Shown one piece after another: positions 5,877-56,500 of a stretch of DNA of 64,000 bases (its first letter is position 1; each line of letters begins with the position of its first letter). The notes under the pieces were generated by a model. That model had not been told where the DNA came from. It ran no database searches and worked only from the letters and a program-made list of their open reading frames with translations. The translations under genes and the position numbers were made by a program. This DNA comes from Arenicola marina (Eukaryota > Annelida > Polychaeta > Arenicolidae). The stretch lies in contig OZ025260.1 of the NCBI GenBank assembly GCA_964019135.1, positions 34,466,254 through 34,530,253 of the forward strand, in the 5' to 3' direction.

Positions 5877-6197
5877 ACTCCTGTGGCCGACATTCTCAGC
5901 CAGTTTTCGTCAGTTCTCGTGCGTGGTAGACACCAACAGAATGAATTGTTTTGGGCCAAAGAGAGTAAACTGCTAGCTCTCCCCTATCTATATTACTTCG
6001 TTAAAATGTTGACGCTGCTCAGACATCAAGAGATACGTACTTGAGTTTGACGTCCACAACTTTATGATATGACAAAGATGATGGATGGATGACATTCGAG
6101 TTTTAGGCCGCTTCGGAATACATGCTTTATACTGGCATCGTGTATTTACTATCGTTACTTAAACGCTGTGCAGACCTCCTAAGGGCTAAGTAGAACA
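5877..6197. other. Unannotated spacer up to LINE insertion
   Basis: Non-repetitive sequence with no convincing exon, RNA gene or repeat. Its last 10 bases (AAGTAGAACA, 6188-6197) form the left copy of the LINE target-site duplication. Confidence 0.5.
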
Positions 6198-8218
6198 CCT
6201 GTTTAACAAAAGCATGTGTGATTTTACATTTCCTGCTCAATGGAAAGATGCCAATGTTACGCCACTTTTTAAGAAAACGGATTCGAAGAAAAAGCAACGA
6301 ATAGAAAATTATCGCCCCATATCTCTGCTCTCATGCGTGGGTAAGGTTATGGAACGGGTAGTTTATAACGAGTTATATGAATTTTGCCTCAGTAATAATC
6401 TCCTGACATGGCGTAATGCCGGCTTTAAAAAGCTAGATTCCACTACAAATCAGCTGATATATATTACTCATAAAATTTACGAATCGTTAGAGCACAATCG
6501 CGATTCAGTTATGGTTTTTCTTGATGTGTCAAAAGCATTTGATAAGGTGTACCACGAGGGTTTATTGCATAAAGTCGAATCATTGGGTATTAAAGGAGAT
6601 CTGTTGAGGTGGCTCAAAAGTTACCTATATTGTAGGCGACAGAGAGTGGTCATAGAGGGTTGCACCTCGGAGTGGAAATATATAAATGCCGGAGTGCCTC
6701 AGGGCTCTATACTGGGGCCGCTCCTGTTTCTCATTTTCGTTAACGATACTGTCGAGGGCCTTGAATGCGAGGCTTATTTATTTGCAGATGACACGTCCCT
6801 ATTTTTTGTACTAGATTTTAATAACGATGTCAAAATCATTAATCGTGATCTAGAACGACTATCTCAGTGGGCCAAACAGTGGCGGGTAACGTTCAATCCT
6901 GATAAAACTGAATACATGGTATTTAGCAAAAAGTTATCGCGACCAAATGAGCTCGATCTATATCTGGACAATTCGAAACTCCGACAAGTAAGAAATCACT
7001 GTCACCTTGGTGTAACCCTATCAGACTCAATGTGCTGGGACCTGCACATAAATAACACTATTATTAAGGCCGAGAAATCTGTTTCTCTACTAAGGCGTCT
7101 TCCTAAACAGGTAGGACGCAGAACTAAATTAAATGTTTATAAAACATATGTTCGACCTAAAATGGAATACTGTACTGCTGTCTTTCATGGCAATCTTACC
7201 AAAACCCAATCAGAGAGGTTGGAAAGTGTACAGCGGCAAGCCCTTGTGTCTGTTACTGGGGCATACAAGAGTACGTCACATACCAAACTGCTGAAAGAAG
7301 TTGGCATTGAACCACTCGCTCTCAGACGTAAATACCTAAGTCTGTGCATTTTGTATAAAATGGTTAATAGTCTCTCTCCGATGTATATGTCTTCTCTATT
7401 ACCTGATTTGGTTTCCCAGTCATCAGTATACTCACATCGGAACTCGACTGACATAAGAATCCCGCATATAAGAAAAAACTATTACAAGAATTCATTCGTT
7501 TGGAACTTAATCAGAGAGTGGAACTCCTTGCCTCAGTGTGTTAAACTAGCAACGTCATTATCACTTTTTAAGTCACTGTATAGGAAGTCATTTTTTTACC
7601 CCGGCAACGAATTGTATAACTATTTTAACAATCCTGAGGCTGTTTACCACACCAGACTCCGCTTAGGCCTGAGCGCACTTAATGGACCTCGCAAAAGATA
7701 CGGTTTTATTAAGGATTCTACTTGTAGTAAATGTAACGGGAAATCTGAAGACGAACTTCACTATCTGTTAAAATGTTCAGAGTATGAGATGCATCGCGAA
7801 ATCCTAATGTCAGATCTATCGTTTTTAAAATTGTATGGTATCAATATATATCCAGAAAGCAGGCATGAATTTAATATCCTTTGTGAATTGTTGTTGTTTG
7901 GTAGCCCCGAGCTGTGTTTTGAAGACAACGTCGCTATATTTAGGGCAGTTCATTTATTTATCCGCAACTCAGCCAGGTTTTCTAGTTAAGGGTCATGGCA
8001 AACTCATTTAATTATGTATTTGGTATTTATCTGAGCTTATATTCATATTCATGCACTTCATTTGTTGACATTACTATATTTATAGTATTACTTATTACCG
8101 TCCTTTGCTGTACATCCAATTAAATTTTTCTTTTTTTATGTTGAGGTGAGCATTAATATGTGTATTCGCTATTGCAAACCTCCAGAAATAAATGATGTTT
8201 AAAAAGAAAAGAAAAAAA
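6198..8218 (+). mobile_element. 5'-truncated non-LTR retrotransposon (LINE)
   Basis: Insertion of about 2.0 kb bounded by a direct repeat, AAGTAGAACA, at 6188-6197 and 8219-8228. This is the target-site duplication expected of target-primed reverse transcription. The 3' end is an A-rich tail (from about 8200, after AATAAATGATG). The 5' end lies inside the reverse-transcriptase coding region: the reading frame is already open from the first bases of the insertion and there is no endonuclease domain, so the copy is dead on arrival. The RT frame has no internal stop, which suggests a fairly recent insertion. The C-terminal arrangement resembles Jockey/CR1/L2-type elements; I cannot assign a clade without a tree. 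Confidence 0.9.
6214..7989 (+). CDS. Reverse transcriptase fragment of LINE ORF2
   Basis: 591 codons from the first in-frame ATG, which is an internal methionine because the frame is open upstream to the insertion point. Visible RT motifs in order: YRPISLLS (residues 33-40), FLDVSKAFD with catalytic Asp104 (102-110), GVPQGSILGP (160-169), FADD with the catalytic Asp pair 192-193, and a primer-grip-like TFNPDKTEYM region. A thumb region follows, then a C-terminal Cys/His cluster (C504, C507, H516, C521) typical of LINE ORF2 C-termini. All catalytic aspartates are present, so the RT core looks intact, but the endonuclease and N-terminal fingers are missing through 5' truncation. It would have copied its own RNA at nicked DNA in the nucleus; this copy should be inactive. 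It is not part of the host gene. Confidence 0.92.
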   Translation: MCDFTFPAQWKDANVTPLFKKTDSKKKQRIENYRPISLLSCVGKVMERVVYNELYEFCLSNNLLTWRNAGFKKLDSTTNQLIYITHKIYESLEHNRDSVMVFLDVSKAFDKVYHEGLLHKVESLGIKGDLLRWLKSYLYCRRQRVVIEGCTSEWKYINAGVPQGSILGPLLFLIFVNDTVEGLECEAYLFADDTSLFFVLDFNNDVKIINRDLERLSQWAKQWRVTFNPDKTEYMVFSKKLSRPNELDLYLDNSKLRQVRNHCHLGVTLSDSMCWDLHINNTIIKAEKSVSLLRRLPKQVGRRTKLNVYKTYVRPKMEYCTAVFHGNLTKTQSERLESVQRQALVSVTGAYKSTSHTKLLKEVGIEPLALRRKYLSLCILYKMVNSLSPMYMSSLLPDLVSQSSVYSHRNSTDIRIPHIRKNYYKNSFVWNLIREWNSLPQCVKLATSLSLFKSLYRKSFFYPGNELYNYFNNPEAVYHTRLRLGLSALNGPRKRYGFIKDSTCSKCNGKSEDELHYLLKCSEYEMHREILMSDLSFLKLYGINIYPESRHEFNILCELLLFGSPELCFEDNVAIFRAVHLFIRNSARFSS

Positions 8219-30200: not shown

Positions 30201-30294
30201 GGTTTGCACGAAATGTACCAAGCAGTGAGAACAGCGGTAAATACACGGACTACGTGGCCACGCGCTGGTACCGGTCACCGGAACTCCTCCTCGG
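30201..30294 (+). CDS. CDKL5: CDKL5-like kinase, activation-loop exon
   Basis: A 94-nt exon with acceptor ATTTGCAG and donor GTAGGT, ending two bases into the Gly codon of LLLG. It encodes [14 protein letters not shown] and [17 protein letters not shown]. The activation motif is Thr-Asp-Tyr at 30245-30253; human CDKL5 has Thr-Glu-Tyr and human CDKL1-4 have Thr-Asp-Tyr. SPE is the APE-type motif that closes the activation segment. An in-frame TAG begins two bases past the exon end, so splicing is required. The following intron contains the 48-bp acceptor repeat. Confidence 0.94.
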
Positions 30295-32253
30295 GTAGGT
30301 CCACCACCGCGCAGGCGCAGGCACATGCAGGCACACGCATGTGTGGCGCGTCGCCATGCTGACTCACGTGCCATCACCATATGTGTGGGTCAAATATGAC
30401 AAGAAAATCCGCGGATTATTCATTGCAGATTTAATGAACTCTGAGCGGGGTCGCCTAGAAGCGGATATTGCGGAATATAACGTTAAGCTTCTTTCTGGCA
30501 TCGCCCATGGTAAAGCTGTGGCTATGCATGTATTCCTTCGGTTTCCCTTTGCAGCATAGACGTATTTTTCTATCGGTGCCCCAAGAAAGCCCATAGGCGA
30601 CTATTCTGTCCGTCCTTGCAGCGCCCCCTATGGTAAAGCTGTAGACATATATTCTGTCGGTCCTTGCAGCGCCCCCTATTGTAAAGCTGTAGACATATAT
30701 TCTGTCGGTCCTTGCAGCGCCCCCTATTGTAAAGCTGCAGACATGTATTCTGTCGGTCCTTGCAGCGCCCCCTATTGTAAGGCTGTATATATATATTATG
30801 TCCGTCCTTGCAGCGCTCCATATTCTAAAGCTGTAGACATATATTCTGTCGGTCCTTACAGCGCCCCCTATTATAAAGCTGTAGACATATATTCTGTCGG
30901 TCCTTAGAGCGCCCCCTATTGTAAGGCTGTATATATATATTATGTCCGTCCTTGCAGCGCTCCATATTCTAAAGCTGTAGACATATATTCTGTCGGTCCT
31001 TCCAGCGCCCCCTATTGTAAAGTTGTAGACATATATTCTGTCGGTCCTTACAGCGCCCCCTATTGTAAAGCTGTAGACATATATTATGTCCGTCCTTGCA
31101 GCGCTCTATATTCTAAAGCTGTAGACATATATTCTGTCGGTCCTTACAGCGCCCCCTATTGTAAAGCTGTAGACATATATTCTGTCGGTCCTTACAGCGC
31201 CCCCTATTGTAAGGCTGTATATATATATTATGTCCGTCCTTGCAGCGCTCCATATTCTAAAGCTGTAGACATATATTCTGTCGGTCCTTACAGCGCCCCC
31301 TATTGTAAGGCTGTATATATATATTATGTCCGTCCTTGCAGCGCCCCCTATTGTAAGGCTGTAGACATATATTCTGTCGGTCCTTGCAGCGCCCCCTATT
31401 GTAAAGCTGTAGACATATATTCTGTCGGTCCTTGCAGCGCCCCCTATGGTAAGGCTGTCGACATATATTCTGTCGGTCCTTCCAGCGCCCCCTATTGTAA
31501 AGCTGTAGACATATATTATGTCCGTCCTTGCAGCGCTTCATATTCTAAAGCTGTAGACATATATTCTGTCGGTCCTTGCAGCGCCCCCTATTGTAAAGCT
31601 GTAGACATATATTCTGTCGGTCCTTGCAGCGCCCCCTATGGTAAGGCTGTCGACATATATTCTGTCGGTCCTTCCAGCGCCCCCTATTGTAAAGCTGTAG
31701 ACATATATTATGTCCGTCCTTGCAGCGCTTCATATTCTAAAGCTGTAGACATATATTCTGTCGGTCCTTGCAGCGCCCCCTATTGTAAAGCTGTAGACAT
31801 ATATTCTGTCGGTCCTTGCAGCGCCCCCTATGGTAAGGCTGTCGACATATATTCTGTCGGTCCTTCCAGCGCCCCCTATTGTAAAGCTGTAGACATATAT
31901 TATGTCCGTCCTTGCAGCGCTCCATATTCTAAAGCTGTAGACATATATTCTGTCGGTCCTTACAGCGCCCCCTATTGTAAAGCTGTAGACATATATTCTG
32001 TCGGTCCTTGCAGCGCCCCCTATTGTAAAGCTGTAGACATATATTCTGTCGGTCCTTGCAGCGCCCCCTATTGTAAAGCTGTAGACATATATTCTGTCGG
32101 TCCTTGCAGCGCCCCCTATGGTAAGGCTGTCGACATATATTCTGTCGGTCCTTGCAGCGCCCGCTATTGTAAAGCTGTAGACATATATTCTGTCGGTCCT
32201 TGCAGCGCCCCCTATTGTAAAGCTGTAGACATATATTCTGTCGGTCCTTGCAG
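30295..32253 (+). other. CDKL5: Intron dominated by acceptor-repeat array
   Basis: Phase-2 intron of 1,959 nt. Only the first ~300 nt (30295-30598) are unique. They include a diverged, probably ancestral repeat copy at about 30498-30555 (GCCCATGGTAAAGCTGTGG then CCCTTTGCAG). The rest is the 48-bp array, whose last unit runs through the true acceptor CCTTGCAG (32246-32253). Confidence 0.9.
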
Positions 32254-32278
32254 CGCCCCCTATGGTAAGGCTGTCGAC
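30599..32278 (+). repeat. 48-bp array of splice acceptor plus exon start
   Basis: Thirty-five units spaced exactly 48 bp with no slippage. The acceptor AG precedes positions 30622, 30670 and so on to the authentic exon start 32254 (34 x 48 = 1,632). Each unit holds ACATATATTCTGTCGG, TCCTTGCAG (variants TACAG, TCCAG, TAGAG) and CGCCCCCTATGGTAAGG or TATTGTAAAG-type copies of the first 25 nt of the exon, then CTGT(A/C)GAC. The last unit is the real intron-exon junction and merges into the exon. In the kinase frame the unit reads [16 protein letters not shown]. Four-unit (192-bp) blocks recur (31350-31541, 31542-31733, 31734-31925). The minus strand is also open (248 codons, 31730-32476), which I regard as a shadow. 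Confidence 0.96.
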
Positions 32279-32443
32279 GTGTGGTCCATCGGGTGCATTC
32301 TGGGAGAGCTCAGCGATGGGCAGGCGCTGTTCCCCGGAGAGAGCGAGATCGACCAGCTCTACACCATCCAAAAGGTGCTCGGCACTCTGCCTCCTTACCA
32401 GATGGAACTCTTCCACAACAACCCCAGATTTAACGGACTCAAG
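32254..32443 (+). CDS. CDKL5: CDKL5-like kinase, helix-F exon
   Basis: A 190-nt exon; its first base completes the LLLG glycine (GG|C) and it ends in phase 0 at donor GTATGG. It reads [19 protein letters not shown], then [20 protein letters not shown], then [26 protein letters not shown] is the helix-F anchor of kinase subdomain IX. [16 protein letters not shown] and NPRFxGL match CDKL5 better than other CDKLs. Its first 25 nt are the sequence duplicated in the upstream array, so its start is ambiguous to the splicing machinery; 32254 is chosen because it reproduces the family's LLLGAPYGK without insertion. Confidence 0.94.
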
Positions 32444-32882
32444 GTATGGCATCATACTCTTGATAGTGGCACCCATAAATTGGGCTATATATATATATTT
32501 TGTGGCAAAGCTTTGTCATTTCCTCTGTTGAACGTTAAAATACTGGTTACTCTTTTGCCTCATGAAATAGCTTACATGTATTGCATCAGGTGATCGAACA
32601 TGAAGAAATGAAATTAAAGATTATAATTCGAATCCCCGGTTATAAAACATTATAATAACAGCTTGGTCAGGATGTAGCAGGATGCTTATTTCATCGTGCA
32701 GTTTATCCTGGGATGAAAATTAAGGTCCCAGCGCCGATCAGTGCAGCAGACCAGCTGGTCCTGGGTTCGAGTCCTGTGAGCTGGCGCCTGCACCCGGCCT
32801 CGGCGTCATCCGACCCCATTTTGTTGGGGCCATTTCTGCCCGCTATGCACAAATGTGGCCTAAAACATGTAAATGGTTTCAG
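32444..32882 (+). other. CDKL5: Intron, 439 nt, with SINE-like relic
   Basis: Phase-0 intron, GTATGG to GGTTTCAG. Between about 32715 and 32870 there is a tRNA-like B box (GGTTCGAGTCC, 32764-32774) followed by GAGCTGGCGCCTGCACCC and a unique body, probably a relic of another Pol III SINE. Its coding potential is nil. Confidence 0.65.
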
Positions 32883-33579: not shown

Positions 33580-36500
33580 GATAATACTCGGGCGTGCCCT
33601 GCCAGGCCAGCCCAGCCCAAGCGACTAGTGCGAGGTTCGGGGATAATACTCGGGTGTGCTCTGCCAGGCCAGCCCAGCCCAAGCGACTAGTGCGGGGTTC
33701 GAGGATAATACTCGGGTGTGCTCTGCCAGGCCAGCCCAGCCCAAGCGACTAGTGCGGGGTTCGAGGATAATACTCGGGTGTGCTCTGCCAGCCCAGCCCA
33801 GCCCAAGCGACTAATGCGGGGTTCGGGGATAATACTCGGGCGTGCTCTGCCAGGCCAGCCCAGCCCAAGCGACTAGTGCGGGGTTCGAGGATAATACTCG
33901 GGCGTGCCCTGCCATGCCAGCCCAGCCCAAGCGACTAGTGCGGGGTTCGAGGATAATACTCGGGTGTGCTCTGCCAGGCCAGCCCAGCCCAAGCGACTAG
34001 TGCGGGGTTCGAGGATAATACTCGGGTGTGCTCTGCCAGCCCAGCCCAGCCCAAGCGACTAGTGCGGGGTTCGGGGATAATACTCGGGCGTGCTCTGCCA
34101 GGCCAGCCCAGCCCAAGCGACTAGTGCGGGGTTCGAGGATAATACTCGGGCGTGCCCTGCCATGCCAGCCCAGCCCAAGCGACTAGTGCGGGGTTCGGGG
34201 ATAATACTCGGGCGTGCCCTGCCATGCCAGCCCAGCCCAAGCGACTAGTGCGGGGTTCGGGGATAATACTCGGGTGTGCTCTGCCAGGCCAGCCCAGGCC
34301 AAGCGACTAGTGCGGGGTTTGGGGATAATACTCGGGCGTGCCCTGCCAGGCCAGGCCAGCCCAAGCGACTAGTGCGGGGTTCGAGGATAATACTCGGGCG
34401 TGCCCTGCCAGGCCAGCCCAGCCCAAGCGACTAGTGCGGGGTTCGAGGATAATACTCGGGCGTGCCCTGCTAGGCCCGCCCAACCCAAGCGACTAGTGCG
34501 GGGTTTGGGGATAATACTCGGGCGTGCCCTGCCAGGCCAGGCCAGCCCAAGCGACTAGTGCGGGGTTTGGGGATAATACTCGGGCGTGCCCTGCCAGGCC
34601 AGGCCAGCCGAAGCGACTAGTGTGGGGTTCGAGGATAATACTCGGGCGTGCCCTGCCAGGCCAGGCCAGCCCAAGCGACTAGTGCGGGGTTTGGGGATAA
34701 TACTCGGGCGTGCCCTGCCAGGCCAGGCCAGCCCAAGCGACTAGTGCGGGGTTCGGGGATAATACTCGGGTGTGCTCTGCCAGGCCAGCCCAGCCCAAGC
34801 GACTAGTGCGGGGTTCGAGGATAATACTCGGGCGTGCTCTGCCAGGCCAGCCCAGCCCAAGCGACTAGTGCGGGGTTCGAGGATTATACTCAGGTGCGCT
34901 CTGCCAGGCCAGCCCAGGCCAAGCGACTAGTGCGGGGTTCGGGGATAATACTGGGGCGTGCCCTGCCATGCCAGCCCAGCCCAAGCGACTAGTGCGGGGT
35001 TCGGGGATAATACTCGGGCGTGCCCTGCCAGGCCAGGCCAGCCCAAGCGACTAGTGCGGGGTTTGGGGAATATACTCGGGCGTGCCCTGCCCGGCCAGGC
35101 CAGCCCAAGCGACTAGTGCGGGGTTCGAGGATAATACTCGGGCGTGCTCTGCCAGGCCAGCCCAGCCCAAGCGACTAGTGCGGGGTTTGGGGAATATACT
35201 CGGGCGTGCCCTGCCCGGCCAGGCCAGCCCAAGCGACTAGTGCGGGGTTCGAGGATAATACTCGGGCGTGCTCTGCCAGGCCAGCCCAGCCCAAGCGACT
35301 AGTGCGGGGTTTGGGGATAATACTCGGGCGTGCCCTGCCAGGCCAGGCCAGCCCAAGCGACTAGTGCGGGGTTTGGGGATAATACTCGGGCGTGCCCTGC
35401 CAGGCCAGCTCAGCCCAAGCGACTAGTGCGGGGTTCGAGGATAATACTCGGGCGTGCCCTGCTAAGCCAGCCCAGCCCAAGCGACTAGTGCGGGGTTTGA
35501 GGATAATACTCGGGCGTGCCCTGCCAGGCCAGCCCAGCCCAAGCGACTAGTGCGGGGTTCGAGGATAATACTCGGGTGTGCGCTGCTAGGCCAGCCCAGG
35601 CCCAGCGACTAGTGCGGGGTTCGAGGATAATACTCGGGCGTGCTCTGCTAGGCCAGCCCAGCCCAAGCGACTAGTGCGGGGTTCGAGGATAATACTCGGG
35701 CGTGCCCTGCCATGCCTGCCCAGCCCAAGCGACTACTGCGGGGTTCGAGGATAATACTCGGGCGTGCTCTGCTAGGCCAGCCCAGCCCAAGCGACTAGTT
35801 CGGGGTTCGAGGATAATACTCGCGCGTGCCCTGCCAGGCCAGCCCAGCCCAAGCGACTAGTGCGGGGTACGAGGATAATACTCAGGCGTGCTCTGCTAGG
35901 CCAGCCCAGCCCAAGCGACTAGTGCGGGGTTCGAGGATAATACTCGGGCGTGCCCTGCCAGGCCAGCTCAGCCCAGCCCAAGCGACTAGTGCGGGGTTCG
36001 AGGATAATACTCGGGCGTGCTCTGCTAGGCCAGCCCAGCCCAAGCGACTAGTGCGGGGTTCGAGGATAATACTCGGGCGTGCCCTGCCAGGCCAGCCCAG
36101 CCCAGCCCAAGCGACTAGTACGGGGTTCGAGGATAATACTCGGGCGTGCTCTGCTAGGCCAGCCCAGCCCAAGCGACTAGTGCGGGGTTCGAGGATAATA
36201 CTCGGGTGTGCTCTGCCAGGCCAGCCCAGCCCAAGCGCCTAGTGCGGGGTTCGAGGATAATACTCGGGTGTGCTCTGCCAGGCCAGCCCAGCCCAAGCGA
36301 CTAGTGCGGGGTTCGAGGATAATACTCGGGCATGCTCTGCTAGGCCAGCCCAGCCCAAGCGACTAGTGCGGGGTTCGAGGATAATACTCGGGCGTGCTCT
36401 GCCAGGCCAGCCCAGCCCAAGCGACTAGTGCGGGGTTCGAGGATAATACTCGGGCGTGCTCTGCCAGGCCAGCCCAGCCCAAGCGACTAGTGCGGGGTTC

Positions 36501-39500
36501 GAGGATAATACTCGGGTGTGCTCTGCTAGGCCAGCCCAGCCCAAGCGACTAGTGCGGGGTTCGAGGATAATACTCGGGCGTGCCCTGCTAGGCCAGCCCA
36601 GCCCAAGCGACTAGTGCGGGGTTCGAGGATAATACTCGAGCGTGCTCTGCCAGGCCAGCCCAGCCCAAGCGACTAGTGCGGGGTTCGAGGATAATACTCG
36701 GGCATGCTCTGCTAGGCCAGCCCAGCCCAAGCGACTAGTGCGGGGTTCGAGGATAATACTCGGGCGTGCTCTGCCAGGCCAGCCCAGCCCAAGCGACTAG
36801 TGCGGGGTTCGAGGATAATACTCGGGCGTGCTCTGCCAGGCCAGCCCAGGCCAAGCGACTAGTGCGGGGTTCGAGGATAATACTCGGGCGTGCTCTGCCA
36901 GGCCAGCCCAGGCCAAGCGACTAGTGCGGGGTTCGAGGATAATACTCGGGCGTGCCCTGCCAGGCCAGCCCAGCCCAAGCGACTAGTGCGGGGTTCGGGG
37001 ATAATACTCGGGCGTGCCCTGCTAGGCCAGCCCAGCCCAAGCGACTAGTGCGGGGTTCGAGGATAATACTCGGGCGTGCTCTGCTAGGCCAGCCCAGCCC
37101 AAGCGACTAGTGCGGGGTTTGAGGATAATACTTGGGTGTGCTCTGCCAGGCCAGCCCAGCCCAAGCGACTAGTGCGGGGTTCGAGGATAATACTCGGGCG
37201 TGCTCTGCTAGGCCAGCCCAGCCCAAGCGACTAGTGCGGGGTTTGAGGATAATACTCGGGCATGCTCTGCTAGGCCAGCCCAGCCCAAGCGACTAGTGCG
37301 GGGTTCGAGGATAATACTCGGGCGTGCTCTGCTAGGCCAGCCCAGCCCAAGCGACTAGTGCGGGGTTCGAGGATAATACTCGGGCGTGCTCTGCTAGGCC
37401 AGCCCAGCCCAAGCGACTAGTGCGGGGTTTGAGGATAATACTCGGGCGTGCTCTGCCAGGCCAGCCCAGGCCAAGCGACTAGTGCGGGGTTCGAGGATAA
37501 TACTCGGGCGTGCCCTGCTAGGCCAGCCCAGCCCAGCCCAAGCGACTAGTGCGGGGTTCGGGGATAATACTCGGGCGTGCTCTGCCAGGCCAGCCCAGGC
37601 CAAGCGACTAGTGCGGGGTTCGGGGATAATACTCGGGCGTGCCCTGCTAGGCCAGCCCAGCCCAAGCGACTAGTGCGGGGTTCGAGGATAATACTCGGGC
37701 GTGCTCTGCTAGGCCAGCCCAGCCCAAGCGACTAGTGCGGGGTTTGAGGATAATACTCGGGCATGCTCTGCTAGGCCAGCCCAGCCCAAGCGACTAGTGC
37801 GGGGTTCGAGGATAATACTCGGGCGTGCTCTGCCAGGCCAGCCCAGCCCAAGCGACTAGTGCGGGGTTTGAGGATAATACTCGGGCGTGCTCTGCCAGGC
37901 CAGCCCAGGCCAAGCGACTAGTGCGGGGTTCGAGGATAATACTCGGGCGTGCCCTGCTAGGCCAGCCCAGCCCAGCCCAAGCGACTAGTGCGGGGTTCGA
38001 GGATAATACTCGGGCGTGCCCTGCCAGGCCAGCCCAGCCCAAGCGACTAGTGCGGGGTTCGAGGATAATACTCGGGCGTGCCCTGCTAGGCCAGCCCAGC
38101 CCAAGCGACTAGTGCGGGGTTCTAGGATAATACTCGGGCGTGCCCTGCCAGGCCAGCCCAGCCCAAGCGACTAGTGCGGGGTTCGAGGATAATACTCGGG
38201 CGTGCCCTGCTAGGCCAGCCCAGCCCAAGCGACTAGTGCGGGGTTCGAGGATAATACTCGGGCGGGCCCTGCCAGGCCAGCCCAGCCCAAGCGACTAGTG
38301 CGGGGTTCGGGGATAATACTCGGGCGTGCCCTGCTTGGCCAGCCCAGCCCAAGCGACTAGTGCGGGGTTCGAGGATAATACTCGGGCGTGCCCTGCTAGG
38401 CCAGCCCATCCCAGCCCAAGCGACTAGTGCGGGGTTCGAGGATAATACTCGGGCGTGCCCTGCCAGGCCAGCCCAGCCCAAGCGACTAGTGCGGGGTTCG
38501 AGGATAATACTCGGGCGTGCCCTGCTAAGCCAGCCCAGCCCAAGCGACTAGTGCGGGGTTCGAGGATAATACTCGGGCGTGCCCTGCCAGGCCAGCCCAG
38601 CCCAAGCGACTAGTGCGGGGTTCGGGGATAATACTCGGGCGTGCTCTGCTAGGCCAGCCCAGCCCAAGCGACTAGTGCGGGGTTCGGGGATAATACTCGG
38701 GCGTGCTCTGCCAGCCCAGCCCAGCCCAAGTGACTAGTGCGGGGTTCGAGGATAATACTCGGGCGTGCTCTGCCAGGCCAGCCCAGCCCAAGCGACTAGT
38801 GCGGGGTTCGAGGATAATACTCGGGCGTGCCCTGCTAGGCCAGCCCATCCCAGCCCAAGCGACTAGTGCGGGGTTCGAGGATAATACTCGGGCGTGCCCT
38901 GCCAGGCCAGCCCAGCCCAAGCGACTAGTGCGGGGTTCGGGGATAATACTCGGGCGTGCCCTGCTAAGCCAGCCCAGCCCAAGCGACTAGTGCGGGGTTC
39001 GAGGATAATACTCGGGCGTGCCCTGCCAGGCCAGCCCAGCCCAAGCGACTAGTGCGGGGTTCGGGGATAATACTCGGGCGTGCTCTGCTAGGCCAGCCCA
39101 GCCCAAGCGACTAGTGCGGGGTTCGGGGATAATACTCTGGCGTGCTCTGCCAGCCCAGCCCAGCCCAAGTGACTAGTGCGGGGTTCGAGGATAATACTCG
39201 GGCGTGCTCTGCCAGGCCAGCCCAGCCCAAGCGACTAGTGCGGGGTTCGAGGATAATACTCGGGCGTGCTCTGCCAGGCCAGCCCAGCCCAAGCGACTAG
39301 TGCGGGGTTCGGGGATAATACTCGGGCGTGCCCTGCCAGGCCAGCCCAGCCCAAGCGACTAGTGCGGGGTTCGAGGATAATACTCGGGCGTGCCCTGCTA
39401 GGCCAGCCCAGGCCAAGCGACTAGTGCGGGGTTCGAGGATAATACTCGGGCGTGCCCTGCTAGGCCAGCCCAGCCCAAGCGACTAGTGCGGGGTTCGAGG

Positions 39501-42500
39501 ATAATACTCGGGCGTGCCCTGCCAGGCCAGCCCAGCCCAAGCGACTAGTGCGGGGTTCGGGGATAATACTCGGGCGTGCCCTGCTAGGCCAGCCCCGCCC
39601 AGCCCAAGCGACTAGTGCGGGTTCGGGGATAATACTCGGGTGTGCTCTGCCAGGCCAGCCCAGCCCAAGCGACTAGTGCGGGGTTCGGGGATAATACTCG
39701 GGCGTGCCCTGCTAGGCTAGCCCAGCCCAAGCGACTAGTGCGGGGTTCGAGGATAATACTCGGGCGTGCCCTGCTAGGCCAGCCCAGCCCAGCCCAAGCG
39801 ACTAGTGCGGGGTTCGGGGATAATACTCGGGCGTGCTCTGCCAGGCCAGCCCAGGCCAAGCGACTAGTGCGGGGTTCGGGGATAATACTCGGGCGTGCTC
39901 TGCTAGGCCAGCCCAGCCCAAGCGACTAGTGCGGGGTTTGAGGATAATACTCGGGCATGCTCTGCTAGGCCAGCCCAGCCCAAGCGACTAGTGCGGGGTT
40001 CGAGGATAATACTCGGGCGTGCTCTGCCAGGCCAGCCCAGCCCAAGCGACTAGTGCGGGGTTTGAGGATAATACTCGGGCGTGCTCTGCCAGGCCAGCCC
40101 AGGCCAAGCGACTAGTGCGGGGTTCGAGGATAATACTCGGGCGTGCCCTGCTAGGCCAGCCCAGCCCAGCCCAAGCGACTAGTGCGGGGTTCGAGGATAA
40201 TACTCGGGCGTGCCCTGCCAGGCCAGCCCAGCCCAAGCGACTAGTGCGGGGTTCGAGGATAATACTCGGGCGTGCCCTGCTAGGCCAGCCCAGCCCAAGC
40301 GACTAGTGCGGGGTTCGAGGATAATACTCGGGCGTGCCCTGCCAGCCCAGCCCAAGCGACTAGTGCGGGGTTCGAGGATAATACTCGGGCGTGCCCTGCT
40401 AGGCCAGCCCAGCCCAAGCGACTAGTGCGGGGTTCGAGGATAATACTCGGGCGGGCCCTGCCAGGCCAGCCCAGCCCAAGCGACTAGTGCGGGGTTCGGG
40501 GATAATACTCGGGCGTGCCCTGCTTGGCCAGCCCAGCCCAAGCGACTAGTGCGGGGTTCGAGGATAATACTCGGGCGTGCCCTGCTAGGCCAGCCCATCC
40601 CAGCCCAAGCGACTAGTGCGGGGTTCGAGGATAATACTCGGGCGTGCCCTGCCAGGCCAGCCCAGCCCAAGCGACTAGTGCGGGGTTCGAGGATAATACT
40701 CGGGCGTGCCCTGCTAAGCCAGCCCAGCCCAAGCGACTAGTGCGGGGTTCGAGGATAATACTCGGGCGTGCCCTGCCAGGCCAGCCCAGCCCAAGCGACT
40801 AGTGCGGGGTTCGGGGATAATACTCGGGCGTGCTCTGCTAGGCCAGCCCAGCCCAAGCGACTAGTGCGGGGTTCGGGGATAATACTCGGGCGTGCTCTGC
40901 CAGCCCAGCCCAGCCCAAGTGACTAGTGCGGGGTTCGAGGATAATACTCGGGCGTGCTCTGCCAGGCCAGCCCAGCCCAAGCGACTAGTGCGGGGTTCGA
41001 GGATAATACTCGGGCGTGCCCTGCTAGGCCAGCCCATCCCAGCCCAAGCGACTAGTGCGGGGTTCGAGGATAATACTCGGGCGTGCCCTGCCAGGCCAGC
41101 CCAGCCCAAGCGACTAGTGCGGGGTTCGAGGATAATACTCGGGCGTGCCCTGCTAAGCCAGCCCAGCCCAAGCGACTAGTGCGGGGTTCGAGGATAATAC
41201 TCGGGCGTGCCCTGCCAGGCCAGCCCAGCCCAAGCGACTAGTGCGGGGTTCGGGGATAATACTCGGGCGTGCTCTGCTAGGCCAGCCCAGCCCAAGCGAC
41301 TAGTGCGGGGTTCGGGGATAATACTCGGGCGTGCTCTGCCAGCCCAGCCCAGCCCAAGTGACTAGTGCGGGGTTCGAGGATAATACTCGGGCGTGCTCTG
41401 CCAGGCCAGCCCAGCCCAAGCGACTAGTGCGGGGTTCGAGGATAATACTCGGGCGTGCTCTGCCAGGCCAGCCCAGCCCAAGCGACTAGTGCGGGGTTCG
41501 GGGATAATACTCGGGCGTGCCCTGCCAGGCCAGCCCAGCCCAAGCGACTAGTGCGGGGTTCGAGGATAATACTCGGGCGTGCCCTGCTAGGCCAGCCCAG
41601 GCCAAGCGACTAGTGCGGGGTTCGAGGATAATACTCGGGCGTGCCCTGCTAGGCCAGCCCAGCCCAAGCGACTAGTGCGGGGTTCGAGGATAATACTCGG
41701 GCGTGCCCTGCCAGGCCAGCCCAGCCCAAGCGACTAGTGCGGGGTTCGGGGATAATACTCGGGCGTGCCCTGCTAGGCCAGCCCCGCCCAGCCCAAGCGA
41801 CTAGTGCGGGTTCGGGGATAATACTCGGGTGTGCTCTGCCAGGCCAGCCCAGCCCAAGCGACTAGTGCGGGGTTCGGGGATAATACTCGGGCGTGCCCTG
41901 CTAGGCCAGCCCAGCCCAAGCGACTAGTGCGGGGTTCGAGGATAATACTCGGGCGTGCCCTGCTAGGCCAGCCCCGCCCAGCCCAAGCGACTAATGCGGG
42001 GTTCGGGGATAATACTCGGGCGTGCTCTGCTATGCCAGCCTAGCCCAAGCGACTAGTGCGGGGTTCGGGGATAATACTCGGGCGTGCCCTGCCGAGCCAG
42101 CCCAGCCCAAGCGACTAGTGCGGGGTTCGAGGATAATACTCGGGCGTGCTCTGCCAGGCCAGCCCAGCCCAAGCGACTAGTGCGGGGTTCGTTGATAATA
42201 CTCGGGCGTGCCCTGCTAGGCCAGCCTATCCCAAGCGACTAGTGCGGGGTTCGAGGATAATACTCGGGCGTGCCCTGCTAGGCCAGCCCAGCCCAAGCGA
42301 CTAGTGCGGGGTTCGGGGATAATACTCGGGCGTGCCCTGCTAGGCCAGCCCCGCCCAAGCGACTAGTGCGGGGTTCGAGGATAATACTCGGGCGTGCCCT
42401 GCTAGGCCAGTCCAGCCCAAGCGACTAGTGCGGGGTTGGAGGATAATACTCGGGCGTGCCCTGCCAGGCCAGCCCAGCCCAAGCGACTAGTGCGGGGTTC

Positions 42501-45500
42501 GAGGATAATACTCGGGCGTGCCCTGCCAGGCCAGCCCAGCCCAAGCGACTAGTGCGGGGTTCGAGGATAATACTCGGGCGTGCCCTGCTAGGCCAGCCCA
42601 GCCCAAGCGACTAGTGCGGGGTTCGAGGATAATACTCGGGCGTGCTCTGCCAGCCCAGCCCAGCCCAAGTGACTAGTGCGGGGTTCGAGGATAATACTCG
42701 GGCGTGCTCTGCCAGGCCAGCCCAGCCCAAGCGACTAGGGCGGGGTTCGAGGATAATACTCGGGCGTGCCCTGCTAGGCCAGCCCAGCCCAAGCGACTAG
42801 TGCGGGGTTCGAGGATAATACTCGGGCGTGCTCTGCCAGTCCAGCCCAGCCCAAGTGACTAGTGCGGGGTTCAAGGATAATACTCGGGCGTGCTCTGCCA
42901 GGCCAGCCCAGCCCAAGCGACTAGTGCGGGGTTCGAGGATAATACTCGGGCGTGCCCTGCTAGGCCAGCCCAGGCCAAGCGACTAGTGCGGGGTTCGAGG
43001 ATAATACTCGGGCGTGCCCTGCCAGGCCAGCCCAGCCCAAGCGACTAGTGCGGGGTTCGGGGATAATACTCGGGCGTGCCCTGCCGGGCCAGCCCAGCCC
43101 AAGCGACTAGTGCGGGGTTCGAGGATAATACTCGGGTGTGCTCTGCCAGGCCAGCCCAGCCCAAGCGACTAGTGTGGGGTTCGAGGATAATACTCGGGCG
43201 TGCTCTGCCAGGCCAGCCCAGCCCAAGCGACTAGTGCGGGGTTCGGGGATAATACTCGGGCGTGCTCTGCCAGGCCAGCCCAGCCCAAGCGACTAGTGCG
43301 GGGTTCGAGGATAATACTCGGGCGTGCCCTGCTAGGCCAGCCCCGCCCAGCCCAAGCGACTAGTGCGGGGTTCGGGGATAATACTCGGGCGTGCTCTGCT
43401 AGGCCAGCCCAGCCCAAGCGACTAGTGCGGGGTTCGGGGATAATACTCGGGCGTGCCCTGCTAGGCCAGCCCAGCCCAAGCGACTAGTGCGGGGTTCGAG
43501 GATAATACTCGGGCGTGCCCTGCCAGGCCAGCCCAGCCCAAGCGACTAGTGCGGGGTTCGGGGATAATACTCGGGCGTGCCCTGCTAGGCCAGCCCCGCC
43601 CAGCCCAAGCGACTAGTGCCGGGTTCGGGGAGAATACTCGGGTGTGCTCTGCCAGGCCAGCCCAGCCCAAGCGACTAGTGCGGGGTTCGGGGATAATACT
43701 CGGGCGTGCCCTGCTAGGCCAGCCCAGCCCAAGCGACTAGTGCGGGGTTCGAGGATAATACTCGGGCGTGCCCTGCTAGGCCAGCCCCGCCCAGCCCAAG
43801 CGACTAGTGCGGGGTTCGGGGATAATACTCGGGCGTGCTCTGCTAGGCCAGCCCAGCCCAAGCGACTAGTGCGGGGTTCGGGGATAATACTCGGGCGTGC
43901 CCTGCCGAGCCAGCCCAGCCCAAGCGACTAGTGCCGGGTTCGGGGATAATACTCGGGTGTGCTCTGCCAGGCCAGCCCAGCCCAAGCGACTAGTGCGGGG
44001 TTCGGGGATAATACTCGGGCGTGCCCTGCTAGGCCAGCCCAGCCCAAGCGACTAGTGCGGGGTTCGAGGATAATACTCGGGCGTGCCCTGCTAGGCCAGC
44101 CCCGCCCAGCCCAAGCGACTAGTGCGGGGTTCGGGGATAATACTCGGGCGTGCTCTGCTAGGCCAGCCCAGCCCAAGCGACTAGTGCGGGGTTCGGGGAT
44201 AATACTCGGGCGTGCTCTGCCAGGCCAGCCCAGCCCAAGCGACTAGTGCGGGGTTTGGGGATAATACTCGGGCGTGCCCTGCTAGGCCAGCCCAGCCCAA
44301 GCGACTAGTGCGGGGTTTGGGGATAATACTCGGGCGTGCTCTGCCAGCCCAGCCCAGCCCAAGCGACTAGTGCGGGGTTCGGGGATAATACTCGGGCGTG
44401 CTCTGCCAGGCCAGCCCAGCCCAAGCGACTAGTGCTGGGTTCGGGGATAATACTCGGGCGTGCCCTGCTAGGCCAGCCCAGCCCAAGCGACTAGTGCGGG
44501 GTTCGAGGATAATACTCGGATGTGCTCTGCTAGGCCAGCCCAGCCCAAGCGACTATTGCGGGGTTCGAGGATAATACTCGGGCGTGCCCTGCCAGGCCAG
44601 GCCAGCCCAAGCGACTAGTGCGGGGTTCGAGGATAATACTCGGGCGTGCCCTGCTAGGCCAGCCCAGCCCAAGCGACTAGTGCGGGGTTCGAGGATAATA
44701 CTCGGGCGTGCTCTGCCAGTCCAGCCCAGCCCAAGTGACTAGTGCGGGGTTCGAGGATAATACTCGGGCGTGCTCTGCCAGGCCAGCCCAGCCCAAGCGA
44801 CTAGTGCGGGGTTCGAGGATAATACTCGGGCGTGCCCTGCTAGGCCAGCCCAGGCCAAGCGACTAGTGCGGGGTTCGAGGATAATACTCGGGCGTGCCCT
44901 GCCAGGCCAGCCCAGCCCAAGCGACTAGTGCGGGGTTCGGGGATAATACTCGGGCGTGCCCTGCCGGGCCAGCCCAGCCCAAGCGACTAGTGCGGGGTTC
45001 GAGGATAATACTCGGGTGTGCTCTGCCAGGCCAGCCCAGCCCAAGCGACTAGTGTGGGGTTCGAGGATAATACTCGGGCGTGCTCTGCCAGGCCAGCCCA
45101 GCCCAAGCGACTAGTGCGGGGTTCGGGGATAATACTCGGGCGTGCTCTGCCAGGCCAGCCCAGCCCAAGCGACTAGTGCGGGGTTCGAGGATAATACTCG
45201 GGCGTGCCCTGCTAGGCCAGCCCCGCCCAGCCCAAGCGACTAGTGCGGGGTTCGGGGATAATACTCGGGCGTGCTCTGCTAGGCCAGCCCAGCCCAAGCG
45301 ACTAGTGCGGGGTTCGGGGATAATACTCGGGCGTGCCCTGCTAGGCGAGCCCAGCCCAAGCGACTAGTGCGGGGTTCGAGGATAATACTCGGGCGTGCCC
45401 TGCCAGGCCAGCCCAGCCCAAGCGACTAGTGCGGGGTTCGGGGATAATACTCGGGCGTGCCCTGCTAGGCCAGCCCCGCCCAGCCCAAGCGACTAGTGCC

Positions 45501-48500
45501 GGGTTCGGGGAGAATACTCGGGTGTGCTCTGCCAGGCCAGCCCAGCCCAAGCGACTAGTGCGGGGTTCGGGGATAATACTCGGGCGTGCCCTGCTAGGCC
45601 AGCCCAGCCCAAGCGACTAGTGCGGGGTTCGAGGATAATACTCGGGCGTGCCCTGCTAGGCCAGCCCCGCCCAGCCCAAGCGACTAGTGCGGGGTTCGGG
45701 GATAATACTCGGGCGTGCTCTGCTAGGCCAGCCCAGCCCAAGCGACTAGTGCGGGGTTCGGGGATAATACTCGGGCGTGCCCTGCCGAGCCAGCCCAGCC
45801 CAAGCGACTAGTGCCGGGTTCGGGGATAATACTCGGGTGTGCTCTGCCAGGCCAGCCCAGCCCAAGCGACTAGTGCGGGGTTCGGGGATAATACTCGGGC
45901 GTGCCCTGCTAGGCCAGCCCAGCCCAAGCGACTAGTGCGGGGTTCGAGGATAATACTCGGGCGTGCCCTGCTAGGCCAGCCCCGCCCAGCCCAAGCGACT
46001 AGTGCGGGGTTCGGGGATAATACTCGGGCGTGCTCTGCTAGGCCAGCCCAGCCCAAGCGACTAGTGCGGGGTTCGGGGATAATACTCGGGCGTGCTCTGC
46101 CAGGCCAGCCCAGCCCAAGCGACTAGTGCGGGGTTTGGGGATAATACTCGGGCGTGCCCTGCTAGGCCAGCCCAGCCCAAGCGACTAGTGCGGGGTTTGG
46201 GGATAATACTCGGGCGTGCTCTGCCAGCCCAGCCCAGCCCAAGCGACTAGTGCGGGGTTCGGGGATAATACTCGGGCGTGCTCTGCCAGGCCAGCCCAGC
46301 CAAAGCGACTAGTGCTGGGTTCGGGGATAATACTCGGGCGTGCCCTGCTAGGCCAGCCCAGCCCAAGCGACTAGTGCGGGGTTCGAGGATAATACTCGGA
46401 TGTGCTCTGCTAGGCCAGCCCAGCCCAAGCGACTATTGCGGGGTTCGAGGATAATACTCGGGCGTGCCCTGCCAGGCCAGGCCAGCCCAAGCGACTAGTG
46501 CGGGGTTCGAGGATATTACTCGGGCGTGCTCTGCTAGGCCAGCCCAGCCCAAGCGACTAGTGCGGGGTTCGAGGATAATACTCGGGCGTGCTCTGCCAGG
46601 CCAGCCCAGCCCAAGCGACTAGTGCGGGGTTCGAAGATAATACTCGGGCGTGCCCTGCTAGGCCAGCCCAGCCCAAGCGACTAGTGCGGGGTTCGAGGAT
46701 AATACTCGGGCGTGCTCTGCCAGGCCAGCCCAGCCCAAGCGACTAGTGCGGGGTTCGAAGATAATACTCGGGCGTGCCCTGCTAGGCCAGCCCCGCCCAG
46801 CCCAAGCGACTAGTGCGGGGTTCGGGGATAATACTCGGGCGTGCTCTGCTAGGCCAGCCCAGCCCAAGCGACTAGTGCGGGGTTTGGGGATAATACTCGG
46901 GTGTGCTCTGCCAGGCCAGCCCAGCCCAAGCGACTAGTGCGGGGTTCGGGGATAATACTCGGGCGTGCCCTGCTAGGCCAGTCCAGCCCAAGCGACTAGT
47001 GCGGGGTTCGAGGATAATACTCGGGCGTGCCCTGCCAGGCCAGCCCAGCCCAAGCGACTAGTGCGGGGTTCGAGGATAATACTCGGGCGTGCCCTGCTAG
47101 GCCAGCCCAGCCCAAGCGACTAGTGCGGGGTTCGAGGATAATACTCGGGCGTGCTCTGCCAGGCCAGCCCAGCCCAAGCGACTAGTGCGGGGTTCGAAGA
47201 TAATACTCGGGCGTGCCCTGCTAGGCCAGCCCCGCCCAGCCCAAGCGACTAGTGCGGGGTTCGGGGATAATACTCGGGCGTGCTCTGCTAGGCCAGCCCA
47301 GCCCAAGCGACTAGTGCGGGGTTCGAGGATAATACTCGGGCGTGCCCTGCTAGGCCAGCCCAGCCCAAGCGACTAGTGCGGGGTTCGAGGATAATACTCG
47401 GATGTGCTCTGCTAGGCCAGCCCAGCCCAAGCGACTATTGCGGGGTTCGAGGATAATACTCGGGCGTGCCCTGCCAGGCCAGGCCAGCCCAAGCGACTAG
47501 TGCGGGGTTCGAGGATAATACTCGGGCGTGCTCTGCTAGGCCAGCCCAGCCCAAGCGACTAGTGTGGGGTTCGAGGATAATACTCGGGCGTGCTCTGCCA
47601 GGCCAGCCCAGCCCAAGCGACTAGTGCGGGGTTCGAAGATAATACTCGGGCGTGCCCTGCTAGGCCAGCCCCGCCCAGCCCAAGTGACTAGTGCGGGGTT
47701 CGGGGATAATACTCGGGCGTGCTCTGCTAGGCCAGCCCAGCCCAAGCGACTAGTGCGGGGTTTGGGGATAATACTCGGGTGTGCTCTGCCAGGCCAGCCC
47801 AGCCCAAGCGACTAGTGCGGGGTTCGGGGATAATACTCGGGCGTGCCCTGCTAGGCCAGTCCAGCCCAAGCGACTAGTGCGGGGTTCGAGGATAATACTC
47901 GGGCGTGCCCTGCCAGGCCAGCCCAGCCCAAGCGACTAGTGCGGGGTTCGAGGATAATACTCGGGCGTGCCCTGCTAGGCCAGCCCAGCCCAAGCGACTA
48001 GTGCGGGGTTCGAGGATAATACTCGGGCGTGCTCTGCCAGGCCAGCCCAGCCCAAGCGACTAGTGCGGGGTTCGAGGATAATACTCGGGCGTGCCCTGCT
48101 AGGCCAGCCCAGCCCAAGCGACTAGTGCGGGGTTTGGGGATAATACTCGGGCGTGCCCTGCCGGGCCAGCCCAGCCCAAGCGACTAGTGCGGGGTTCGAG
48201 GATAATACTCGTGCGTGCTCTGCCAGGCCAGCCCAGCCCAAGCGACTAGTGCGGAGTTCGGGGATAATACTCGGGCGTGCCCTGCTAGGCCAGCCCAGCC
48301 CAAGCGACTAGTGCGGGGTTTGGGGATAATACTCGGGCGTGCCCTGCTAGGCCAGCCCAGCCCAAGCGACTAGTGCGGGGTTTGGGGATAATACTCGGGC
48401 GTGCCCTGCCGGGCCAGCCCAGCCCAAGCGACTAGTGCGGGGTTCGAGGATAATACTCGGGCGTGCCCTGCTAGGCCAGCCCAGCCCAAGCGACTAGTGC

Positions 48501-49006
48501 GGGGTTTGGGGATAATACTCGGGCGTGCTCTGCCAGGCCAGCCCAGCCCAAGCGACTAGTGCGGGGTTCGGGGATAATACTCGGGTGTGCCCTGCCGGGC
48601 CAGCCCAGCCCAAGCGACTAGTGCGGGGTTCGGGGATAATACTCGGGTGTGCCCTGCCGGGCCAGCCCAGCCCAAGCGACTAGTGCGGGGTTCGGGGATA
48701 ATACTCGGGTGTGCCCTGCCGGGCCAGCCCAGCCCAAGCGACTAGTGCGGGGTTCGGGGATAATACTCGGGTGTGCCCTGCCGGGCCAGCCCAGCCCAAG
48801 CGACTAGTGCGGGGTTCGAGGATAATACTCGGGCGTGCTCTGCCAGGCCAGCCCAGCCCAAGCGACTAGTGCGGGGTTCGGGGATAATACTCGGGCGTGC
48901 CCTGCTAGGCCAGCCCAGCCCAAGCGACTAGTGCGGGGTTCGAGGATAATACTCCGGCGTGCCCTGCTAGGCCAGCCCAGCCCAAGCGACTAGTGCGGGG
49001 TTCGAG
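33580..49006. repeat. 62-bp minisatellite, ~250 copies over 15.4 kb
   Basis: Head-to-tail 62-bp units: GATAATACTCGGGCGTGC, (C/T)CTGCC(A)GGCCAGCCC, AGCCCAAGCGACTAGTGC, GGGGTTCGAG. Variation is concentrated at a few sites (CCAGG/CTAGG, GAGG/GGGG, TTCG/TTTG); some units carry an extra AGCCC (67 bp). Higher-order blocks are clear. A seven-unit 439-bp block recurs (38233/38672, 46658/47097/47536). Segments near 37.8-39.6 kb recur 2,189-2,194 bp further on, and 43.17-44.25 kb recurs 1,880 bp further on. The final unit ends GGGGTTCGAGTCGCAC, passing directly into a SINE tail. All ORFs in it are artefacts. Confidence 0.97.
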
Positions 49007-53571: not shown

Positions 53572-56500
53572 GTAAGTGGCTCAGCTGGCGTCTCCTTCCC
53601 CGTTCGTCTGCTTCCCTGTTCGTCTGCTTTCCCGGTCGTCGGCTTCCTCGGTCGTCTGCTTCCCTGATTCTCTCCTTCCCCGGTCGTCTGCTTCCCCGGT
53701 CGTCTGCTTCCCCGGTCGTCTACTTCCCCAGTCGTCTACTTCCCTGATCCTCTTCTTCTCCGGTCGTCTGCTTCTCCGGTGGTCTCCTTCCCCGGTCGTC
53801 TGCTTCCCTGATCCTTTCCTTCCCCGGTCGTCTGCTTCCCTGGTCATCTGCTTCCCCGGTCGTCTGCTTTCCCTGGTCGTCTGCTTCCCCCGTCGTCTGC
53901 TTCCCCGGTCATCTGCTTCCCCGGTCGTCTGCTTCCCTGGTCATCTGCTTCCCCGGTCGTCTGCTTTCCCTGGTCGTCTGCTTCCCCCGTCGTCTGCTTC
54001 CCCGGTCGTCTGCTTTCCCTGGTCGTCTGCTTCCCCGGTCATCTGCTTCTCCGGTCATCTGCTTCCCCGGTCATCTGCTTCCCTGGTCGTCTGCTTCCCC
54101 CGTCGTCTGCTTCCCCGGTCGTCTGCTTCCCTCGTAGTCTACTTCCCCGGTCGTCTGCTTTCCCTGGTCGTCTGCTTCCCCGGTCATCTGCTTCCCCGGT
54201 CATCTGCTTCCCTGGTCGTCTGCTTCCCCGGTCGTCTGCTTCCCCGGTCGTCTGCTTTCCCTGGTCGTCTGCTTCCCCGGTCATCTGCTTCCCCGGTCAT
54301 CTGCTTCCCTGGTCGTCTGCTTCCCCCGTCGTCTGCTTCCCCGGTCGTCTGCTTTCCCTGGTCGTCTGCTTCCCTGATCCTCTCGTTCCCCGGTCGTCTG
54401 TTTCCCTGGTCGTCGGCTTCCCCGGTCGTCTGTTTCCCTGATCCTCTCCTTCCCCGGTCGTCTGTTTCCCCGGTCGTCTGCTTCCCTGGTCGTCTGCTTC
54501 CCCCGTCGTCTGCTTCCCCGGTCGTCTGCTTCCCCCGTCGTCTGCTTCCCCGGTCGTCTGCTTCCCCCGTCGTCTGCTTCCCCGGTCGTCTGCTTTCCCC
54601 GGTCGTCTGCTTCCCCGGTCGTCTGCTTCCCCGGTCGTCTGCTTTCCCTGGTCGTCTGCTTCCCCGGTCATCTGCTTCCCCGGTCATCTGCTTCCCTGGT
54701 CGTCTGCTTCCCCCGTCGTCTGCTTCCCCGGTCGTCTGCTTTCCCTGGTCGTCTGCTTCCCTCGTAGTCTGCTTTCCCTGGTCGTCTGCTTCCCCGGTCA
54801 TCTGCTTCCCCGGTCATCTGCTTCCCTGGTCGTCTGCTTCCCCGGTCGTCTGCTTCCCCGGTCGTCTGCTTCCCCGGTCGTCTGCTTTCCCTGGTCGTCT
54901 GCTTCCCCGGTCATCTGCTTCCCCGGTCATCTGCTTCCCTGGTCGTCTGCTTCCCCCGTCGTCTGCTTCCCCGGTCGTCTGCTTTCCCTGGTCGTCTGCT
55001 TCCCTCGTAGTCTGCTTCCCCGGTCGTCTGCTTTCCCTGGTCGTCTGCTTCCCCGGTCATCTGCTTCCCCGGTCATCTGCTTCCCTGGTCGTCTGCTTCC
55101 CCCGTCGTCTGCTTCCCCGGTCGTCTGCTTCCCCGGTCGTCTGCTTCCCCCGTCGTCTGCTTCCCTGGTCGTCTGCTTCCCTGGTCGTCTGCTTTCCCTG
55201 GTCGTCTGCTTCCCCGGTCATCTGCTTCCCCGGTCATCTGCTTCCCTGGTCGTCTGCTTCCCCCGTCGTCTGCTTCCCTGGTCGTCTGCTTTCCCTGGTC
55301 GTCTGCTTCCCTGATCCTCTCCTTCCCCGGTCGTCTGCTTCCCCGGTCGTCTGCTTCCCCGGTCGTCTGTTTTCCTGATCCTCTCGTTCCCCGGTCGTCT
55401 GTTTCCCTGGTCGTCTGTTTCCCCGGTCGTCTGTTTCCCCGGTCGTCTGCTTTCCCGGTCGCCTGTTTCCCTGGTCCCCTCCTTCCCCGGTCGTCTGTTT
55501 CCCCGGTCGTCTGCTTTCCCGGTCGTCAGCTTCCCTGATCTTCTCCTTCCCCGGTCATCTGCTTCCCTGTTCGTCTGCTTTCCCGGTCGTCGGCTTCCCT
55601 GTTCGTCTCCTTCTCCGGTTGTCTCCTTCTCCGGTCGTCTGCTTCCCTGATCCTCTCCTTCCCCGGTCGTCTGCTTCCCTGTTCGTCTGGTTTCCCGGTC
55701 GCCTGCTACCCCGGTCGTCTGCTTCTCCTGTCGTCTGCTTCCCCGGTCGTCTGCTTTTCCGGTCGTCTGCTTTCCTGATCCTCTCCTTCCCCGGTCGTCG
55801 GCTTATCCGGTCGTCTGCTTCCCTGATCCTCTCCTTCCCCGGTCGTCTGCTTCCCCCCGTCGTCTGCTTCCCTGATCCTCTCCTTCCCCGGTCGTCGGCT
55901 TCTCCGGTCGTCTGCTTCCCTGATCCTCTGCTTCCCCGTTCGTCTGCTTTTCCGGTCGTCTGCGTCCCTGATCCTCTCCTTCCCCCGTCGTCGGCTTTTC
56001 CGGTCGTCTGCTTCACTGATCCTCTCCTTCCCTTGTCGTCTGCTTCCCCGGTCGTCTGCTTCCCCGGTCGTCTGCTTCCCCGGTCGTCTGCTTCCCTGAT
56101 CCTCCTTCCCCGGTCGTCTGCGCTTCCCCGGTCGTCTGCTTCCCTGATCCTCTCCTTCCCCGGTCGTCGGCTTCTCCGGTCGGGTGCTCTCCCGGTCGTC
56201 TGCTTTCCCCGTCGTCTGTTTCCCCGGTCGTCTACTTCTCCGGTCGTTTGCTTCCCTGGTCATCTGCTTCCCTGGTCGTCTGCTTCCCTGATCGTCTGCT
56301 TCCCTGATCCTCTCCTTCCCCGGTCGTCTGCTTCCCCGGTCGTCTGCTTCCCCGGGAAGCAGTGGTCCGCTTCTCCGGTCGTCTGCTTCCCTGATCCTCT
56401 CCTTTCCCGGTCGTCTGCTTCCCCGGTCGTCTGCTTGCCCCCGTCGTCTGCTTCCCCGGTCGTCTACTTCTCCGGTCGTCTGCTTCCCCGGTCATCTGCT

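Follow-up and report, generated by a model that had tools for sequence, protein, structure and literature searches.

The 35-copy, 48-bp array that precedes an exon of a CDKL5 gene in the lugworm Arenicola marina is most probably a junction minisatellite, or "mirage" (the term is said to have been coined in a 2002 paper): a nearly neutral tandem duplication, tolerated through exon-proximal splicing and produced by a process that recurs at other genes. Coordinates refer to the window, that is, the whole stretch of 64,000 nucleotides that was analysed, and are collected in Table 1 together with the junction arrays read at other loci.

The host gene comprises eight exons between 28875 and 51197, which can be joined in one frame with 0 stops, and the exon adjoining the array finds its best PDB match in CDKL5 (4bgq, E 1.4e-30). 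The exon join and this match bear out the proposal of the preliminary description that the last unit of the array is the real junction of the exon starting at 32254. Homologous proteins from Ridgeia and Lineus (two animal proteins read, of 120 listed, both from other species) are without an insert at the array position. The COX1 on the mitochondrial contig of the assembly is closest to annelid sequences (Pilargis wolfi 92%, followed by other members of Phyllodocida), and amphioxus was rejected as the source on this ground. Elsewhere in the window, a 599-aa open frame at 6190-7986 (+) with an RVT_1 reverse-transcriptase domain (E 1.5e-35) marks a retroelement that precedes the kinase exons. Introns in the window also hold two arrays of great length (33580-49006, 62 bp x 247; 53589-64000, 16 bp x 645), of which the 16-bp array continues past the window end and begins, as judged by eye, a few nucleotides 3' of an apparent exon donor.

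Tandem Repeats Finder (TRF) delineated the array at a period of 48 with 34.9 copies, 90% matches and 0% indels, and the unit spacing was exactly 48 bp in 34/34 intervals, which confirms the 35 copies described earlier. Each unit holds an acceptor and the first 25 nt of the exon, so that the junction itself has indeed been amplified. An AG occupies the acceptor position of 35/35 units, likewise as described (TGCAG 24, TACAG 6, TCCAG 4 and TAGAG 1, the last in the single unit with exon start 30910); since 29 of the 48 unit columns are invariant, as read from the unit table, this retention is not special. The units fall into 16 distinct types in an ordered pattern; only 5/35 are identical to the exon unit, the real one counted, and the most frequent unit has 3 differences from it. 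A four-unit block structure is evident, as unit pairs at lag 4 are identical in 8/31 cases. A search with the CDKL5 junction DNA across the 867-Mb genome, in a mode that ignores very common words, returned 34 matches, every one of them at the CDKL5 locus.

Table 1. Features of the CDKL5 locus (window positions) and junction arrays read at other loci of the same genome.
Feature	Position	Strand	Unit	Copies	Basis or content
Upstream CDKL5 exon, donor GTAGGT	30201..30294	+			Exon join
Older, decayed copy with probable remains of another; site of the intron's top-scoring acceptor (exon side from 30555)	30480..30601	+			Local alignment, shuffles; acceptor matrix 10.6
Junction array, exon starts 30622 to 32254 every 48	30602..32278	+	48 bp	35	TRF, unit table, spacing, unit types
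Open frame of the CDKL5 exon, extending over the closest 27 upstream acceptors; closed by TAG 30905-30907	30908..32593	+			Frame reading
Real CDKL5 exon	32254..32443	+			PDB 4bgq match and exon join; the terminal array unit takes in its first 25 nt
Donor-like GTAAGG formed by Gly-Lys codons of the exon, 11 nt past its start	32265..32270	+			Donor matrix 9.46; the real donors on either side score 7.83 and 8.48
L072 (kinesin gene) acceptor array			45 bp	9	Copies exon start GVTEGYNGTIF
L072 donor array			60 bp	4	Copies GVYVQ and its donor
L072 donor array			~69 bp	30	Copies KLNLVDLAGSERQGKT and its donor
L074 acceptor array			~33 bp	47	Before the exon that also has the 61-bp donor array
L074 donor array			61 bp	30	After the exon that also has the ~33-bp acceptor array
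L073 donor array			~93 bp	25	
L075 donor array			31 bp	52 counted; TRF 69.8	
L049 donor array			92 bp	3	
L067 acceptor array			61 bp	2-3	
L082 myosin donor array			62 bp	at least 4	
L089 myosin donor array			37 bp	at least 5	

The 35-unit block stands as described, and the array as a whole proved longer and older. A degenerate copy lies within 30480-30600, its alignment score being matched by 0/500 shuffles while two control stretches were unremarkable, and the same segment probably holds remnants of a second older copy (30555-30600, where 8/1000 shuffles reach the score). Because these degenerate copies sit upstream, the CDKL5 array is not brand-new; it is homogenised inside and its edge units have diverged. 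Decaying edge copies around a homogenised centre are typical of older minisatellites.

The unit had been described as about 23 nt of intron end followed by the exon start. The 25 exon nucleotides are plain, whereas the 23-nt "intronic" part may be largely exon-derived, on evidence that is mixed. Read in the exon frame, the 15 nt beyond the exon part give IYSVG where the exon gives VWSIG (BLOSUM sum 18), a likeness spotted post hoc, after looking, with a shuffle p of 0.0002, and reached by 0/6368 intronic 15-mers of the CDKL5 gene; the nucleotide comparison of the same 15 nt with the exon gave 8/15 (shuffle p 0.013). Against this, the degenerate copies show no above-chance resemblance to the exon past +25 (their scores are equalled or exceeded in 524, 400 and 148 of 1000 shuffles). 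If the exon origin is true, the pyrimidine region of the real acceptor would be duplicated exon and the old intron would have contributed only ~8 nt. The 45-bp kinesin array (L072) is plainly exon-built, with about 31 to 34 exon nucleotides and a short acceptor end. Birth of the intron by exon duplication was considered and rejected: the unit is unlike the upstream exon end, and 30295-30480 seems unrepeated (by eye only).

The array is best explained by a tandem duplication that straddled the 3' splice site of this CDKL5 intron. Growth and homogenisation would then have followed by unequal exchange or gene conversion, as is commonly inferred from repeat patterns of this type, partly in four-unit blocks and with the real exon as the terminal unit, while copies at the upstream edge escaped homogenisation and decayed. 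Splicing presumably uses the acceptor that lies closest to the donor of the same exon (after 32443), as sites would pair across the exon; the remaining copies would for that reason be left within the intron, close to neutral. The same process affects donors and acceptors of further genes in this annelid genome, which is rich in minisatellites. For human alternative sites, one study reports that the site closest across the exon is preferred when introns are large (PMC9225289).

That the splicing machinery faces many upstream copies of its own target held up on scoring with acceptor and donor matrices: 33/34 upstream acceptor copies score at or above the real acceptor. The donor-like GTAAGG inside the exon start recurs as an exact copy in 4 upstream units (17, 13, 9 and 3 units before the exon) and is weakened or destroyed in the others. 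The changes, at donor positions -1, +1 and +5, are no more than suggestive of decoy donors having been disarmed in the array, as they represent few independent events.

The preliminary description knew of no described gene with an acceptor array of this size. Similar junction arrays occur at other exon boundaries of the same genome, in kinesin and myosin genes, whose exons were located by HMM and whose arrays were then read at the flanks. Altogether 12 distinct junction arrays were read, CDKL5 included, 8 at donors and 4 at acceptors. The splice dinucleotide is intact in 35/35, 6/9, 3/4, 29/30, 25/25, 37/47, 30/30 and 51/52 copies of eight arrays, so that copied dinucleotides are mostly retained and not purged. 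Three further loci (L048, L068 and L077) carry purely intronic arrays that end near a splice site and abut the exon without copying it; these were left out of the count.

Frequency was estimated at 90 match ends, from 25 kinesin and 20 myosin exon matches chosen by HMM score, kinase matches not included. Own-junction arrays of about four or more copies were found at 4 of these ends (L052, L058, L082 and L089), and a fifth end (L067) has only 2-3 copies. The kinesin set retained 25/30 loci, L042, L043, L045, L046 and L051 being left out as lying on contigs with in-frame TAG or TAA; because L061 and L071 may fall within a single long open frame, 50 kinesin ends is an upper count. The myosin set comprised ranks 2 to 21 of 77 matches with 200-bp flanks, which cut long arrays and make the copy numbers lower bounds. 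Ends are those of the HMM matches, and arrays wholly past them can escape; at L048 the apparent 12 copies come from a match running into an intronic array. Loci L072-L075, chosen for arrays already seen, are counted as cases and not in the frequency. In the kinase sample, mostly long single-exon matches, 0/20 had three or more junction copies (20/30 kept; L009, L010, L012, L015, L016, L017, L020, L024, L025 and L038 left out for in-frame TAG/TAA contigs).

Some side observations on the assembly emerged from these searches. At loci L020, L038, L046 and L051 and on the small contigs C443, C465, C504 and C536, the kinase or kinesin matches contain TAG and TAA in frame and CCCAAC/GGGGTT arrays occur, which on codon and telomere habits we take to be probable ciliate contamination. 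One chromosome (G000 C3, about 23.8-57 Mb) carries numerous short kinase matches in open frames of ~280-380 aa, an expanded family, and five equal-score kinase matches ~8.5 kb apart (L029-L033, G000 C5:5402476-5437356) form a recent tandem gene array. Among the myosin matches, including G000 C7:32810158-32814321, several exon matches lie inside one 1401-aa open frame.

Could duplications be drawn to junctions, say by breaks coupled to transcription or splicing, and arrays there thus exceed chance? The 4/90 match ends, with the fifth of 2-3 copies, would be in keeping with such attraction. Tandem arrays, however, make up 20-23% of bases in the 25 kinesin loci and 63% in the CDKL5 window, and randomly placed founding duplications would give 0.93 (arrays of 5+ copies) to 1.86 (2+) at the 50 kinesin ends, where 2-3 were seen. 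The probability of three or more under random placement is 0.07 to 0.28, in a small sample. Enrichment at junctions is thus not significant, and attraction is unsupported, since random placement in a repeat-rich genome predicts about as many; we regard it as unlikely. Minisatellite formation appears widespread in the genome, and the arrays at junctions may reflect no more than the concealment of the copies by splicing. On a tentative extrapolation, whose chance we put slightly short of even, about 1 in 20 exon boundaries lies within a minisatellite of its own junction, and probably thousands are spliced correctly among many equally good sites. If so, position across the exon would have to determine which splice site is chosen. 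The acceptor arrays, CDKL5 included, would then allow exon definition to be tested, in a natural setting and across the genome, against first-come or scanning choice.

A functional alternative is that occasional use of upstream acceptors yields CDKL5 isoforms with variable 16-aa repeats before helix F, selection keeping the 48-bp period and the frame. Such a generator would agree with 48 = 3 x 16, with a frame open across 27 upstream copies, with AG in 35/35 units and with 0 indels in 34 spacings. The frame is nevertheless interrupted by one in-frame stop (30905); among array units 5/20 distinct changes are synonymous against 33/144 possible, which is no synonymous skew, and 7/144 possible single changes would create a stop; and the invariance of 29/48 columns makes the AG unexceptional. 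Perfect periodicity, earlier offered as compatible with selection, does not carry that meaning, because other arrays in the window with periods of 50, 31, 68 and 22 bp, not divisible by 3, likewise have 0% indels; a 61-bp junction array elsewhere is equally regular, and others have indels. Selection on frame, suggested by the first arrays read (48, 45, 60, 69, 93 and 33 bp), lost ground once junction arrays of 61, 61, 31, 92, 62 and 37 bp were found, and is further weakened by indels in the arrays near 69, 93 and 33 bp, so that frame is not generally kept. No observation on the CDKL5 array demands selection, and the isoform generator appears improbable to us. An assembly artefact, conceivable insofar as tandem arrays are difficult to assemble, is scarcely credible given 16 unit types in an ordered pattern, a 42-Mb contig that carries arrays up to 15 kb and like structures at unrelated loci.

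The nearly neutral junction minisatellite is favoured by the array with its real terminal unit, the lag-4 blocks, the decayed edges, the recurrence in 12 arrays and the near-random frequency. Counted against it are the frame open across 27 upstream copies and the AG in 35/35 units, which a functional reading also predicts, and the dependence of the frequency estimate on 4/90 match ends. Exon definition predicts use of the last acceptor and the first donor, and first-come choice the first acceptor; in CDKL5, splicing to that first copy would lead into the stop at 30905. Acceptor arrays are the telling cases because the two models differ there. With 35 near-identical acceptors ahead of one conserved exon, and donor arrays behind other exons, nature supplies a test of spliceosomal choice among equivalent sites. 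In such genomes, exon ends may be wrongly placed by gene predictors.

With regard to known systems, the lack of a comparable described gene suggested in the preliminary description does not hold, as amphioxus mirages and a human donor repeat are of the same kind in the available portions of the literature. Mirage minisatellites are described there in amphioxus Adh3, the globins BflGb6 and BflGb9, TnC and PGBD5, with regular mRNA reported (PMC3087553, PMC3902484). Their printed unit lengths range from 10 to about 160 bp (PMC3087553), and the CDKL5 array fits this class, with a unit that spans the exon-intron boundary and a length of 48 bp within the range. A homogenised interior and a diverged edge are common to both in the accessible text (PMC3087553, PMC3902484). 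The CDKL5 array differs in having 35 units, against 6 and 3 in the two amphioxus BflGb6 haplotypes described there, and in its host, an annelid as against a cephalochordate, a matter of where such arrays are seen and not of definition.

The human ABCA7 intron-18 VNTR, with about 12 to 427 repeats of a 25-bp unit, resembles the CDKL5 array in that the unit includes the exon's splice site; it differs in lying on the donor side, at one human locus, with a unit that starts at the donor GT and no exon part described in the excerpted text (PMC5954066). In contrast to the regular mRNA of the amphioxus mirages, this VNTR alters splicing in a measurable, length-dependent manner, according to the same excerpt (PMC5954066). 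Human internal tandem repeats at exon-intron boundaries are reported to alter the structure of genes, with new introns or alternative transcripts as possible outcomes; they share the boundary location, and average ~4 copies of 30 bp in segmental duplications, with no large junction array in the portion available (PMC2812944). Earthworm metallothionein introns also hold large minisatellite arrays in an annelid, although these are described within the intron, with no junction-spanning unit in the available text (PMC12783039). Among the titles and abstract openings listed by searches of open-licence literature, none showed a junction array in an annelid. As far as those searches show, the phylum, the large copy numbers at several unrelated loci, the flanking of one exon by arrays on both sides and a first, rough estimate of frequency are new. 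Overall, the recurrence in one annelid genome shows that structures of this kind extend beyond cephalochordates and single human loci.
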